A stretch of 32,746 nucleotides of DNA from Leptospiraceae bacterium (GTDB lineage Bacteria; Spirochaetota; Leptospiria; Leptospirales; Leptonemataceae), in NCBI GenBank assembly GCA_020441005.1, contig JAGRNA010000144.1:1-32746 (forward strand), given 5' to 3'. The position numbers and the translations under genes were made by a program. The notes under the pieces were generated by a model. It was not told where the DNA came from. It did not search any database and saw only the letters and a program-made list of their open reading frames with translations. This document shows positions 3,683-8,065 of this stretch, piece after piece. Every line of letters begins with the position of its first letter. The stretch's first letter is position 1.

Positions 3683-4888
3683 TCAAGGCAAGGGACAATC
3701 GGTTGGCATAGACGGTAGCGGTCGGGAGGGATCGCTAAAAGCCGGGTCGGCCACAAAGCACGGATCGCTTAAAGAGAGCAAAAAGGCTAGTAGCTGCTGC
3801 TTTTCCTGCCAGCTCAGGGTAAAAGGCCTGATTCGGGGATCCTTGTTGGGATTCAGCCGCCCGTCACCACGCAGTGGTCCTCCTGTAATCCGGCGCCCAC
3901 CAGCCTGCAGTATTTCAATCAGCTCGGGCAGGCTCTGCACGCTACCATCATGCATATAGGGCGCTGTATAAGCCAGGTTGCGCAGACCGGGTGTTCTGTA
4001 TTTGCCGCGATCGGCCGGATTGCCAGTCACCAGAAACAAGCCCTGGCTGGCGCGGCCGGCCGCAGCACCGTGCAAGGCCTGATCAGGATAATCACCACGA
4101 CCAAGCACATTATACAAGCCGACATTGGCAAATTCCTGTAAGCCGCTAGCAGACGAGCGGTTAAAATCCGGTCCGCTGTGGCAGGCCACGCAGTTTAAAC
4201 GCTCGGAGCGAAACAAGGTCTCTCCCTGACGGGCTGCCTCACTCTGACGATTCAAGTCATACGGACTGCGCCAGGATAGCAGGGTTGTTTGAAAAGTGGC
4301 CAAGGCCAGGGCGGCTGTAGTGATTGTGATATCGCGGCCCGGGAAGGAGCGCGCGAACAAGCCAGCCAGGACCGGATCAGTAGTCAGCCGGCCGATGATC
4401 TGGTACTCGCTGCCGGTGATCGCCAGTTCCTCGATGGTGGTCGGCGTATCCTCGGAAAAAAAAGGGATCAGCGCCTGGTTGTCAAATCGCTTTAAAGCTG
4501 GATTGTTCCAGGTCAGGCTGTCAAAAAAAACTGTATTTGCCAGACCGGGAGTATTGCGGGCATGCAGCTGACCAGTAGAACCGCGCGAGCGTGCTTGCTG
4601 GTCGGCAAAGGCGGATTGCTGCTGATGGCAGCTGGAGCACGACTGCTTTTGATTGCCGGACAGTTTGGACGAATAAAACAAATGACGACCCAGGGTTACT
4701 CGCTCAGGGGTGATGCAAACACCTTGCGGTTGATCAGGCTGTCGGTGTCCGGCTGGCAGGGCAAACTCGAAAGCCGCGCAAGGCAGTCCCAGGGTCTCAC
4801 GCAACGGAATGCAGGCTGTTAGAATAGCGGCATAAAAAGCGAACAGCGCCAGGTCGCGCAGCCATGACTTCACAATTCGACCGGTCAT
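3683..4888 (-). CDS. Di-heme cytochrome c peroxidase / MauG-family lipoprotein
   Basis: The 401-residue protein belongs to the bacterial di-heme cytochrome c peroxidase and MauG superfamily, which uses two c-type hemes for peroxide-dependent redox chemistry outside the cytoplasm. Heme sites are CSSCH (residues 84-88) and CVACH (233-237). The family's PYMHDG motif lies at about 310-315, after YRTPGLRNL. An N-terminal hydrophobic segment ends in ILTAC (Cys26), a good lipobox, so it is probably a lipid-anchored periplasmic protein. I chose ATG at 4886-4888; a TTG codon directly upstream is the alternative. It is the last gene of a three-gene operon, 48 bases after the previous stop. The operon partners suggest an oxidised protein substrate or a redox partner, but the sequence does not say which. 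Confidence 0.9.
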   Translation of the reverse strand: MTGRIVKSWLRDLALFAFYAAILTACIPLRETLGLPCAAFEFALPAGHRQPDQPQGVCITPERVTLGRHLFYSSKLSGNQKQSCSSCHQQQSAFADQQARSRGSTGQLHARNTPGLANTVFFDSLTWNNPALKRFDNQALIPFFSEDTPTTIEELAITGSEYQIIGRLTTDPVLAGLFARSFPGRDITITTAALALATFQTTLLSWRSPYDLNRQSEAARQGETLFRSERLNCVACHSGPDFNRSSASGLQEFANVGLYNVLGRGDYPDQALHGAAAGRASQGLFLVTGNPADRGKYRTPGLRNLAYTAPYMHDGSVQSLPELIEILQAGGRRITGGPLRGDGRLNPNKDPRIRPFTLSWQEKQQLLAFLLSLSDPCFVADPAFSDPSRPLPSMPTDCPLP

Positions 4889-4936
4889 CAATAGACTGTG
4901 ATGATCAAGCTGCGACTATGGAACTGAAAACCACTG

Positions 4937-6196
4937 CTAAAACCCAGGCGCTTCCGAGACAGGATGAAAACTGATCGAGTTAAGGGAGTCCAGGGTGGCT
5001 TTCTGAGTATCGTCGTAGCCGTTGTTGCCTCCATTACCGCTAGTACCCAGCTTGTTGAACAAGGCCTGCACTCCGGGATAGCCGCCGTTCACCGATGGGT
5101 CGGGAAAACCGCCTGGAATACCGCTCGAAGCCAGTCCGTCACTAATAAAGCCGCTGCCGTTAAAGGTTGCAAATTTCAGAATATCGGCACCGCACAAAGT
5201 ACTGGATGCGGGCATGTCCCCAACCCTGATCCCGGACAGGGCTGTCGTTTCAAAACTGTTCGCATTCAATTGGCCATAGGCCAGACTATAATAGTAATTA
5301 CCACTACCGCAGCCGAAATTAGTGGAAACGGTCCGTGAAGCGACTCGCACACACAGCGCGCCCGACGATGTGCCGCCGCCCTTCAGACCGATTGTCATTT
5401 CTTCCAGAATTACACGACCGCGGTCGCTGGTATTCGAGGCCTGCGAACCGGTACTATGGAAGGCCTGGCCCCAGGAATAGGTTTGGCGTCTTGATCCAGC
5501 ACCACCGCTAATGTAGCTCTCCACGATCAGATCTTCATTGGTCGCCGAACTGGTGTCCAGGGCTGCCAGCCGATAGCTTAGCAGGACTCCGTCGCCCGTA
5601 GCCGGATTGTTGACATCATCAAAAATCATTTCGAGAACGTCTTTATTGTCGCTGGCCCGCCACATCTTGAAACGGTAGCTAAAGTCTTTGGTGCCGGTAT
5701 AGGCGCTGGAAGAAATGCCAGTACAAGCACCGGCAGTAGAGCAGTTTGTTTCCAACTTGATCTTGTAGCTGACGCCGCTAATCGTACTGGTCGTCTGGAT
5801 TGTACTGGGCGAACTTGTGTTCAAGAGGCCCGAATTCTTTAGCGAAACGATTAAATTATCAGCTATGGTTGAATTGCCATTGGCCCAGGTCGCAGACTGC
5901 CGTACAAAGGACCAACTGCTCTCGGCCGCTTCCGCTTTGCGCGGCCCGCTGACTACTAGCTGCCAGGGATGGGGACTGCTGACAGCCACTGGTGTGCCAC
6001 CCTGGAAGCGGGTCTCCAAAACATCCTTGATGGGCTGGATCTGCGGCAGGCTCATAGTGATGGCCCCGGTACGGGACTCACGACTGATATGGATGGAAAC
6101 GCCAAAAAGCAGTATCCCGATGAAAAGCCCACTCAGGATCAGACGTACTTTGCGTAGCAAGGATGATTTGGTTTTCAGTTGTTGTAAAAATTTCAT
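4937..6196 (-). CDS. Exported or membrane-anchored protein of unknown function
   Basis: I do not recognise this 419-residue protein. It starts MKFLQQLKTKSS, followed by basic residues and one hydrophobic segment (LILSGLFIGILLFGVSIHI), then a long polar, Gly/Ser/Thr/Asn-rich extracytoplasmic region. Several Cys residues (in NCSTAGACTG, GALCV, FGCGSG, TLCGAD) are spaced as possible disulfide partners. The middle segment DVLEMIFDDVNNPATGDGV looks like an ordered domain. An upstream in-frame ATG at 6242-6244 would overlap the preceding gene; the MKF start leaves a 20-base gap and puts the signal anchor at the N-terminus, so I prefer it. Its position between a tiny lipoprotein and a di-heme peroxidase makes it a candidate partner or substrate of that enzyme, which is inference only. 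Confidence 0.75.
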   Translation of the reverse strand: MKFLQQLKTKSSLLRKVRLILSGLFIGILLFGVSIHISRESRTGAITMSLPQIQPIKDVLETRFQGGTPVAVSSPHPWQLVVSGPRKAEAAESSWSFVRQSATWANGNSTIADNLIVSLKNSGLLNTSSPSTIQTTSTISGVSYKIKLETNCSTAGACTGISSSAYTGTKDFSYRFKMWRASDNKDVLEMIFDDVNNPATGDGVLLSYRLAALDTSSATNEDLIVESYISGGAGSRRQTYSWGQAFHSTGSQASNTSDRGRVILEEMTIGLKGGGTSSGALCVRVASRTVSTNFGCGSGNYYYSLAYGQLNANSFETTALSGIRVGDMPASSTLCGADILKFATFNGSGFISDGLASSGIPGGFPDPSVNGGYPGVQALFNKLGTSGNGGNNGYDDTQKATLDSLNSISFHPVSEAPGF

Positions 6197-6216
6197 TTTG
6201 GAATCCAGGGGTATTG

Positions 6217-6444
6217 TTAAAAGCGCAAGCCTGGCGGAATACAAATCACCAGGCCGGATTCATTCTTGCAGGTGTTGCTGGATTGATTCAGGGCAGCGGC
6301 CAACAAGAGCAAAAGACCTGTATTGTCCTCTTCTTTGGCTTCAAACAGGCTGCAACTGGCAAAACCCAACAAAGCCGAAAGGCTTACAATGAGTGCAGCT
6401 CTCCAGAAGTGCGGCCAATCGCTCAGAAATGCTTTTCTTGTCAT
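6217..6444 (-). CDS. Tiny lipoprotein (75 aa)
   Basis: The protein has a basic N-terminus, a hydrophobic core (AALIVSLSALLGFA) and a lipobox FASC with Cys31. The mature part is about 45 residues: a short acidic stretch, then GLLLLLAAALNQSSN, then a small Cys-containing end (NTCKNESGLVIC). A Leu-rich run just after the lipidated Cys is common in leptospiral surface lipoproteins, from memory. ATG at 6442-6444 is preferred; a GTG codon lies directly before it. It is the first gene of the operon with the exported protein and the di-heme peroxidase, and sits right below a good promoter. Function is unknown. Confidence 0.7.
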   Translation of the reverse strand: MTRKAFLSDWPHFWRAALIVSLSALLGFASCSLFEAKEEDNTGLLLLLAAALNQSSNTCKNESGLVICIPPGLRF

Positions 6445-6453
6445 CACATCACC

Positions 6454-6482
6454 AGTATAAATTACAGGGCTGTCCTTTACAA
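6454..6482 (-). promoter_or_regulatory. Sigma-70 type promoter of the di-heme peroxidase operon
   Basis: On the minus strand, TTGTAA (6477-6482) is separated by exactly 17 bases from TATACT (6454-6459). Transcription would begin near 6447, only a few bases before the ATG at 6444. The message would therefore have almost no leader and no room for a normal ribosome binding site. Confidence 0.5.
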
Positions 6483-6700: not shown

Positions 6701-7267
6701 ATGGTCCGAAGCTCCCTGATAGCATCTGAAACGGAATCACAATTGGTTTCTTCCAGCACTCTCTTGATACCCCGGCATCTGCTGGATTATTTCACTCTAC
6801 GTGTGCATGATTTTCGGAGTGTCAGAGCTTACTTTGAATACCTGATTGTCAACTACGGTCGCCAGCTGGCCCGCTATAAAATTAATCCGGCCAGCCACAA
6901 GTGGAAGAAAAAATACCAGAATCCGGGCCTGGATTTGCAAATTCGAAATTTCAGGCCCGATCCCCGGTTCTGGGAGGAATTTCGGCATATCGCTTTTGGC
7001 TATGGTCTGGCTATGTGCAATCTTTTTGTCATCTTGCTGGAACTGGAGCATAGACTCTGGCTAAAAGCGAAATCCCCCGCTAAATTTCATGAAACCCAGC
7101 CATCGCAGCCTGCGGGGCACCGTAAAAGTGTGAACTCAAGACAAAACTTGCATTTTGGGCAAAAGAAATATATATTAAATTTACTATCCAGTAATGAATT
7201 TGCAATATTAATCAGATCAATGGATTATTCAGACCAGAGATTGCATCGGATGTGTTTGATACACTGA
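6701..7267 (+). CDS. DUF1564 family protein (Leptospirales-specific)
   Basis: The 188-residue protein matches the remembered layout of DUF1564, a family of unknown function found essentially in Leptospira and relatives. The signature region runs from TLLIPRHLLDYFTLRV through a Tyr-rich helix, then KWKKKYQNPGLDLQ, then the block FRPDPRFWEEFRHIAFGYG and CNLFVILLELE. Basic, helical character and the short 'xxFRPxxxxWxEL' type block suggest a ribbon-helix-helix-like or other small DNA-binding fold, which is inference. The C-terminal third (after about residue 125) is less conserved in character. ATG at 6701 has no clear Shine-Dalgarno sequence. The gene stands alone, divergent from the peroxidase operon and convergent with the next gene. 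Members are often found near accessory DNA. Confidence 0.75.
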   Translation: MVRSSLIASETESQLVSSSTLLIPRHLLDYFTLRVHDFRSVRAYFEYLIVNYGRQLARYKINPASHKWKKKYQNPGLDLQIRNFRPDPRFWEEFRHIAFGYGLAMCNLFVILLELEHRLWLKAKSPAKFHETQPSQPAGHRKSVNSRQNLHFGQKKYILNLLSSNEFAILIRSMDYSDQRLHRMCLIH

Positions 7268-7321: not shown

Positions 7322-8065
7322 CTAAAACCGCCAGTCAATAGCGTCAATATCCGCAGCCGACATGGCCGGCTTTACTTGCGTGCCAAGATGCATGCGAATC
7401 AATTCCCGATCAATCGGACTATATTCCTGCCCCGTTGTCCAGCCTTGATAAAAAATGCTGTCTTTGTAATCATACGTATCGTTTAACAGACCCAGGCCCT
7501 GGGTGAATTCTTCGCGCAGCAAATGCTTACGACCGGCCAGGGTTTGCGTGCGAAATACATCCACATACATGCTTCCCGCATAAATCTCGGACCGGGAGTT
7601 CCAGTTAATCCACACCAGGCCCCAGTTCGCCTGCAAATACGGCTCTGCATCCGGCTCGAAATCAGCGTATTCGGCGGCACTGCTTAAAAAAACAATGAAA
7701 TTCGCATCCGTGCGGTCGGTCACTCGTCGAATCCGGATTGTGCTGCTCAGCTGATTTAATTCAACGATGATTCGGTCGAGTTCGGCGGTCAAATCCGGAT
7801 AATCGGAATCTCGCAGCCAGACGCGCAGGTCTTGCTGCCATTTTTTGATCTGTTTGGCACCGTTGCCGTACTCGGATCCAAGCGCTATTTTCTTATAATA
7901 CTCTACTGCCGTCCTTTGATCGATAATTGTTTCGCTGAGCGGTTCAGAAATCTGCGGGTTCTTTTCAGATTGCAGTCGGCAACTGCCAAAGGTCAGACTG
8001 GTTGACGCAATCAAGGCCAGAAGCACTGTACGCAAGTTAGAACTAGAAATGAAACCCGGGGTCAT
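7322..8065 (-). CDS. DUF2927-type lipoprotein
   Basis: The 247-residue protein has a signal peptide ending in a lipobox-like TFGSC (Cys29), so it is predicted to be lipid-anchored. The C-terminal half resembles DUF2927, an extracytoplasmic family with a zinc-protease-like signature. The block LREEFTQGLGLLND spans residues 183-196, followed by DSIFYQG and YSPIDRELIRMHLGTQVKPAM. In the family as I remember it the block reads H-E-E-x-T-Q; here Arg184 occupies the His position, so metal-dependent catalysis is doubtful. The region before it (NFIVFLSSAAEYADF, then SEIYAGSMYVDVF) also fits. ATG at 8063-8065 lacks a strong ribosome binding site. No operon partner is evident. Confidence 0.75.
   Translation of the reverse strand: MTPGFISSSNLRTVLLALIASTSLTFGSCRLQSEKNPQISEPLSETIIDQRTAVEYYKKIALGSEYGNGAKQIKKWQQDLRVWLRDSDYPDLTAELDRIIVELNQLSSTIRIRRVTDRTDANFIVFLSSAAEYADFEPDAEPYLQANWGLVWINWNSRSEIYAGSMYVDVFRTQTLAGRKHLLREEFTQGLGLLNDTYDYKDSIFYQGWTTGQEYSPIDRELIRMHLGTQVKPAMSAADIDAIDWRF

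Follow-up and report, generated by a model that had tools for sequence, protein, structure and literature searches.

A di-heme lipoprotein of the MbnH clade encoded beside an exported protein of the LIC_12337 family in Leptospirales

Results

Three genes on the minus strand

The window analysed here, a stretch of 32,746 nt from a Leptospiraceae bacterium (GenBank assembly GCA_020441005.1, contig JAGRNA010000144.1), carries on its minus strand genes for a tiny lipoprotein (6217-6444), an exported protein (4937-6196), and a di-heme lipoprotein (3683-4888). They are named in the order of transcription and are separated by 20 and 48 nt. The genome designated G000, in which the window makes up contig C34, was assembled into 304 contigs and is 89.87% complete. 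A three-gene set had been proposed in the original prediction, which was made from the sequence alone, and three neighbouring open reading frames (ORFs) of the same strand were indeed found at these positions. Their spacing suggests that all three are transcribed together.

The exported protein has 419 aa and consists of an N-terminal hydrophobic helix followed by a domain predicted to be rich in beta-strands. It had been described as a protein without known family, but it matched the NCBIfam model NF047527 (LIC_12337) with 276.2 bits at a cut-off of 270; the isolated domain remained just below this value (268.3 bits). Matches to Pfam, or to any family besides LIC_12337, were not obtained.

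The di-heme protein, 401 aa in length, belongs to an MbnH-derived clade of the CCP_MauG superfamily. Its heme-binding motifs are CSSCH at residues 84-88 (4625-4639, minus strand) and CVACH at residues 233-237 (4178-4192, minus strand). The score with PF03150 (CCP_MauG) was 124 bits (cut-off 25.6). With TIGR04039, the model for MbnH, 331 bits were obtained, which is under the cut-off of 362.85, and with TIGR03791, the model for MauG, 109.9 bits, the cut-off being 443.85. The closest solved structure is 6e1c, which is recorded as a di-heme enzyme and which we take to be MbnH. The protein had been designated a MauG-like lipoprotein; its lipobox Cys (Cys26) was confirmed, and it is nearest to MbnH rather than to MauG.

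Distribution of the genes and phylogeny of their products

Genes of the LIC_12337 family were detected in 18 out of 30 genomes of the order. The same 18 were found among 48 genomes of the class, with no family member outside the order in this set. In seven of the 18 genomes, G000, G004, G005, G006, G008, G009, and G015, an MbnH-type enzyme directly adjoins the LIC_12337-family gene; these loci and their products are called linked in the following. Co-occurrence of the three genes in the order had been suggested as a check, and the trio was recovered in linked loci of different genera. Beyond the trio, these loci have no flanking gene in common (ORFs of at least 80 aa, more than 60 bits). A wider scan of contigs revealed ten loci, apparently all from genomes already counted. 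The genus Leptospira was not among the titles of the loci found.

The gene for the tiny lipoprotein adjoins that for the exported protein in 17 out of 20 extracted loci, regardless of the presence of the enzyme; the window, which contains the lipoprotein gene too, is not part of this set. Two of the three loci without an adjoining lipoprotein gene, L072 and L081, are cut by contig ends, and the third is L087. Therefore, lipoprotein and exported protein constitute the older unit and the enzyme is a later addition.

The seven linked enzymes formed one clade (100/100) in a tree calculated from 41 di-heme proteins. This clade nests in an MbnH clade of 29 rows (100/100), in which the remaining 22 members without exception are MbnP-linked and the deepest forks were not resolved. 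The result for the linked enzymes was also obtained when the column of the axial ligand described below was removed (Shimodaira-Hasegawa-like approximate likelihood ratio test, SH-aLRT, 99). Their nearest kin are apparently MbnP-linked enzymes of the same order, with moderate support (82/83). The seven linked exported proteins, of which one is incomplete, likewise formed one clade (98/98), and all seven enzymes of the linked clade are encoded directly downstream of a LIC_12337-family gene. A profile of the seven enzymes was searched against 392 genomes of the phylum, with at most four candidates per genome scored in the genomes listed. Twenty-seven genomes were above threshold; the linked enzymes reached 644 to 724 bits and the next best protein 352. 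Apparently, an MbnH-type enzyme joined the old pair once, in one lineage of the family to which the window belongs.

Within the linked clade, the Cys and His residues of both heme-binding motifs are invariant (7/7), as is the lipobox Cys26. Only the enzymes of G004 and G006 exceed the cut-off of TIGR04039. Three of the genomes, G006, G008, and G015, possess an MbnP-MbnH pair in addition to the LIC_12337-enzyme pair, and the search with TIGR04052 (MbnP) gave no match in the other four, G000, G004, G005, and G009.

Axial ligation of the second heme

A profile of the C-terminal parts of five linked enzymes could be aligned to MauG, with no gaps in the block ending at the ligand position. Its position 39 corresponds to MauG residue 294, the Tyr that axially ligates the six-coordinate heme. 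In the window enzyme this residue is Leu327 (3908-3910, minus strand), and in the six other linked enzymes it is Phe. All 23 MbnP-linked enzymes compared have Tyr at the axial position; in those with an insert, the column was placed by eye and with the help of the full alignment. Among 11 other di-heme proteins, seven have Tyr and four Met. The cytochrome c peroxidase 3o5c has Met at this position; the clade of the window, with Leu or Phe, lacks this ligand of bacterial cytochrome c peroxidases (bCCPs).

Eighteen of the MbnP-linked enzymes came from genomes of the class. For 12 of these, the MbnP partner came from searching the order with TIGR04052; for six, from another family of the class, it was recognized solely with an MbnP model that had been built locally. 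One of the six, L119, fell outside the MbnH clade. Five of 12 plasmid matches entered the tree and the count of 23. Nine of the 12 lie beside a gene annotated as MbnP. Tyr is found in each of the nine, three being the same or nearly the same sequences as others. Four of these records, with Tyr as well, are outside the set compared, and three of the four are copies or near copies of others. Tyr is also present in the plasmid matches H4, from an unannotated record, and H10, for which no MbnP is annotated; H12, a divergent peroxidase, has no Tyr.

Two side observations concern these proteins. L136, from a plasmid of Diaphorobacter sp. HDW4B, contains an MbnH-like enzyme with axial Tyr, hypothetical neighbours, and no annotated MbnP; possibly, this enzyme has another partner. 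In L129-L132, L135, L136, L138, and L139, di-heme MbnH-like proteins with two CxxCH motifs carry the annotation "methanobactin export MATE transporter MbnM", which is apparently a misnomer.

According to a study on BthA of Burkholderia, the second heme is ligated by Tyr and His in MauG and by Met and His in bCCPs, and the near-infrared feature of the bis-Fe(IV) state is absent in the BthA variants Y463H and Y463M and in MauG Y294H (PMC6405878). The axial Tyr variants of BthA are described there as unchanged in peroxidase turnover (PMC6405878). The same ligand residue was used to tell MauG from cytochrome c peroxidase in Leptospira (PMC7567364). In the linked enzymes, the chemistry has probably changed along with this residue.

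Trp127, Gln138, Pro142, and Glu154 are invariant in the seven linked enzymes. We take them to be equivalent to MauG Trp93, Gln103, Pro107, and Glu113, an assignment based on spacing; on this basis, the residues of the peroxide pocket are kept. Two features set the linked clade apart. One is a segment with a clade-specific insert, DYPDQALHGAAAGRASQGL (4037-4093, minus strand), including His273; His is present in 7/7 linked enzymes, and 22 of the 23 MbnP-linked enzymes have a gap there. The other is a C-terminal Cys pair, C377/C398, common to the linked clade.

Structure prediction and conserved residues of the exported protein

The model of the exported protein's domain shows a long helix and, after it, many antiparallel strands (predicted local distance difference test score, pLDDT, 85.9; predicted template modelling score, pTM, 0.86). 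The model of the full-length protein was weaker (pLDDT 73), and a fold search with it yielded a best Z of 7.9 and a best E of 0.45. No clear match to a known fold was obtained for the domain, with a best E of 0.27 in Foldseek and a best Z of 7.1 in VIA-align, the latter a tie between OspA-like sheets and porin barrels; these hits point to a common beta arrangement only and were not accepted. Solved relatives detectable by sequence were not convincing either (best E 0.12). A relationship to MbnP was also considered and not adopted; profile similarity was lacking: hhalign gave a probability of 0.1% (17 and 9 sequences), a result compatible with a shared fold. Nor did MbnP appear among the listed fold matches, which carries no weight against a relationship.

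Four Trp residues, Trp95, Trp104, Trp179, and Trp242, are invariant in 13 aligned core members of the family, irrespective of the presence of the enzyme. When five distant members were included, only Trp95 and Trp242 remained. Among the residue types scanned, eight were confined to the linked proteins: Tyr144, Lys145, Cys158, Lys177, Phe246, Asp366, Tyr373, and Phe419. These counts compare six linked proteins with eight others. The protein from L072 (G009), of which only the last 127 residues are available, was omitted, and the eight members without MbnH-type enzyme are effectively seven, as L080 and L081 are probably one gene; one of these is linked to another di-heme protein, DHOR (see below). 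Tyr144 (5765-5767, minus strand) is present in 6/6 full-length linked proteins, and Phe or His is found instead in all eight core members without MbnH-type enzyme. The segment with Tyr373 (5078-5080, minus strand) is likewise present in 6/6, the others having a gap (7) or Ser (1). Near the position of Cys158, a separate Cys pair is present in four members that lack the enzyme.

A second di-heme enzyme family beside a paralogue

Genome G000 contains a paralogue of the exported protein on contig C37 (locus L081). Directly downstream, on the same strand and overlapping with it, lies an ORF of 535 codons with two CxxCH motifs, which was identified as a DHOR protein (PF06537, 254 bits, cut-off 22). 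The two genes occupy L081:5137-7654, the paralogue standing in the place of imelysin. Matches to PF06537 were found in ten out of 48 genomes of the class. In eight of the nine other DHOR loci that were read (L141-L148, not L150), a gene for imelysin (PF09375) is located directly upstream; the DHOR match of G037, which is in two pieces, was left out of this reading. In G000, which is about 90% complete, PF09375 had no match, and there was no DHOR besides the one linked to the paralogue and a scrap. The related loci L080 (contig C212) and L081 overlap at contig ends over 952 bases (97.06%, no gaps). Probably, they are copies of one gene, and the locus was split or doubled by the assembly. Thus, two relatives of one exported-protein family occupy in G000 the usual partner places of two di-heme families.

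The tiny lipoprotein, its promoter region, and flanking genes

The tiny lipoprotein of 75 aa, already recognized in the original prediction, has its lipobox Cys at position 31 and ends in a tail, SGLVICIPPG (6229-6258, minus strand), which is conserved among its homologues. By position and tail only, it resembles LIC12338; the corresponding model NF047803 gave 13.5 bits (E=0.05), the cut-off being 90 bits. At locus L087 (genome G029), no separate lipoprotein gene was found, and the LIC_12337-family exported protein encoded at L087:4609-5745 seems to have a lipoprotein-like N-terminus of its own. This N-terminus is the best non-seed match of the lipoprotein model (13.7 bits, E 0.0066; next ORF 11.8 bits). 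The match is too weak for a fusion of lipoprotein and exported protein to be assumed, and this reading was not used.

A promoter starting transcription almost at the first ATG had also been proposed. A sigma-70-like sequence, TTGTAA-17-TATACT, is present upstream of the lipoprotein gene (6454-6482, minus strand), but such matches are at chance level: two occur in the region and shuffled sequences yield 2.0 on average (standard deviation 1.6). In addition, a GGAGG ribosome site lies just before the start in five of the 11 homologous lipoprotein genes printed (L070, L075, L076, L077, and L078). A leaderless reading of this promoter is not supported.

Further upstream, the window encodes a DUF1564 protein (6701-7267), a relative of which is found near the paralogue on contig C212 of G000 (L080:6714-7298), and a DUF2927 protein (7322-8065), apparently a lipoprotein.

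Discussion

Relation to known systems

The set described here is most similar to MbnH/MbnP (TIGR04039/TIGR04052), with which it shares the 100/100 enzyme clade, two CxxCH hemes, and an exported partner encoded directly upstream. It differs in that the partner lacks profile similarity to MbnP, that the axial Tyr is replaced by Phe or Leu, and that G000 has no MbnP by TIGR04052; the linked enzymes also have the additional Cys pair C377/C398 and the insert with His273, and the window enzyme scores below the MbnH cut-off. With MauG, which acts on pre-methylamine dehydrogenase, the superfamily and the peroxide-pocket residues are shared, but the MauG model is matched with 110 bits only, at a cut-off of 443.85, and an equivalent of Tyr294 is absent from the window enzyme. 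MopE/SACCP and CorA/CorB of methanotrophs are also pairs of a di-heme enzyme and an exported partner (PMC3621798). Their partners bind copper, and they are placed next to the window by description, not by sequence. DHOR/imelysin pairs combine a di-heme protein with an exported partner as well, and the DHOR of G000 adjoins a paralogue of the exported protein of the window; DHOR, however, belongs to PF06537 and the window enzyme to PF03150. BthA, like the linked enzymes, is an offshoot of the superfamily departing from both MauG and bCCP, but it retained the Tyr ligand (Tyr463) (PMC6405878).

For the exported protein and the lipoprotein, the counterparts are LIC_12337 and LIC12338 of Leptospira: the exported protein matches the family model, and the lipoprotein is found in the corresponding place, LIC12337 and LIC12338 presumably being adjacent, as judged by their locus numbers. 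LIC12337 is named a putative outer membrane protein (PMC2387172) and is given as "up" in a table column whose heading was not visible (PMC5348505), and LIC12338 is listed with -4.75 among down-regulated genes (PMC3953431). The accessible literature on LIC12337/LIC12338 did not contain a role for either protein. Nor did the accessible literature on LIC12337/LIC12338, MbnH/MbnP, MauG, and MopE contain a link between a MauG-type enzyme and LIC_12337; DHOR in combination with LIC_12337 was not searched.

A possible function of the module

The genomic data suggest that the exported protein is probably the partner of the enzyme. The module would consist of the old pair in the cell envelope, lipoprotein and beta-rich exported protein, and of the MbnH-type di-heme lipoprotein added to it. 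Hydrogen peroxide would react at the first of the enzyme's hemes, which is five-coordinate, and the oxidising equivalent would then be passed by contact to the exported protein made along with the enzyme, where a side chain or a cysteine pair may be altered. With Phe or Leu in place of the axial Tyr of the second heme, the enzyme could not make use of a Tyr-stabilised bis-Fe(IV) state. The second heme would be open or held by another residue, for which His273 of the clade-specific insert is the obvious candidate. We put the probability that the exported partner is oxidised in this way, by means of peroxide and without bis-Fe(IV), at about 0.46, that is, slightly below even odds.

That the exported protein might be a substrate had already been proposed by analogy to MauG. 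In favour of this part of the proposal are the exclusive pairing of the two clades (7/7), the existence of relatives known or proposed to modify a partner, and the DHOR gene beside a paralogue; the lack of link-specific Trp residues and the loss of the axial Tyr speak against it. A Trp substrate of MauG-like chemistry is less likely than had been assumed.

Several observations weigh against the explanation by partner oxidation. Of the 18 genomes in which the family occurs, 11 show no TIGR04039-type enzyme next to its gene according to search coordinates, and in ten of these, for which loci were extracted (all except G013), no ORF of at least 180 aa with two CxxCH motifs was found in the stretch. 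The exported protein of G001 (L079), which has no adjoining enzyme, is the sister of the linked clade. Because of these 11 genomes, including that of the nearest relative, it is concluded that the exported protein functions without the enzyme elsewhere. Homologues without a peroxidase neighbour in most genomes had been named as an outcome that would refute a substrate role; this outcome was found for the family as a whole (11 of 18 genomes), but not for the linked clade (7/7 with the enzyme). Furthermore, the linked set comprises only seven genomes, all from one family and three of them from one genus. The four invariant Trp residues are kept equally well in the absence of the enzyme and none marks the linked partners, so that Trp as the altered residue gains no link-specific support from them, which does not exclude it. 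Two Tyr residues, 144 and 373, are confined to linked proteins, but they are two of eight such positions and may reflect mere shared ancestry. The arrangement with DHOR is a single observation in one genome of about 90% completeness. Finally, MauG-type bis-Fe(IV) chemistry, and with it MauG-like long-range oxidation, is unlikely in the linked enzymes because the axial Tyr is replaced by Phe or Leu.

Alternative explanations

The main alternative is an envelope scavenger in which the enzyme simply reduces hydrogen peroxide to water. The exported protein and the lipoprotein would then not be substrates, but would act as its scaffold or electron donor. The intact peroxide pocket fits this explanation well, and so does the behaviour of BthA, which upon replacement of the axial Tyr lost the bis-Fe(IV) signal and kept its peroxidase turnover (PMC6405878); this would be the natural state of the linked clade. 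Phe and Leu, however, are non-ligating, unlike the Met of ordinary cytochrome c peroxidases, and there would be no need for a scavenger to be paired strictly with a single clade of partners. On balance, we regard it as rather unlikely, and still as the most serious competitor of partner oxidation.

Distinctly less probable is an enzyme with oxygenase or peroxygenase activity towards a lipid or small molecule bound by the beta-rich exported protein. The wider family includes RoxA and di-heme fatty-acid enzymes of Pseudomonas, and a protein modelled as a large beta-sheet domain could hold such a compound. However, the exported protein offers neither a family match beyond LIC_12337, nor a solved relative, nor a clear fold match that would point in this direction.

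It could also be envisaged that the exported protein replaces MbnP in an MbnH-like copper system, as a copper protein matured by formation of kynurenine. The enzyme is located inside the MbnH clade, the four genomes G000, G004, G005, and G009 have the linked pair and no TIGR04052 match, and the sister protein takes the place of imelysin beside DHOR. Nevertheless, G006, G008, and G015 hold both pairs, profile comparison gave no similarity between the exported protein and MbnP, and the axial Tyr is gone, which makes a copper system quite improbable. Least probable is a neighbourhood without function, in which the enzyme acts elsewhere and was kept beside the pair by common descent: the single origin of both clades makes the linkage one event inherited by seven genomes rather than seven independent ones, but the trio stayed together while its flanks differ between genera, and a second di-heme enzyme family is found beside a paralogue.

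The reading we prefer is that the exported partner is oxidised without bis-Fe(IV). In its most far-reaching form, LIC_12337 proteins would be a class of partners of di-heme enzymes with at least two recruitments, one replacing MbnP next to an MbnH-type enzyme and one replacing imelysin next to DHOR. In the MbnH-type case, maturation of the protein by peroxide would proceed without a Tyr-ligated heme, which has been regarded as essential for it, perhaps with His273 as new axial ligand and with a product at Tyr or Cys rather than at Trp. This extension is doubtful at present.

Implications

Which residue ligates the second heme has long been regarded as dividing MauG-like oxidation of proteins from ordinary peroxidase activity, as put in the BthA study (PMC6405878). 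The linked enzymes would provide a natural test of whether the axial Tyr is needed for oxidation of a partner. For proteins of the LIC_12337 and LIC12338 type, the association with a di-heme enzyme would be a first functional lead. Since a paralogue of the exported protein adjoins an enzyme of a second family, partners may be exchangeable among di-heme enzymes.

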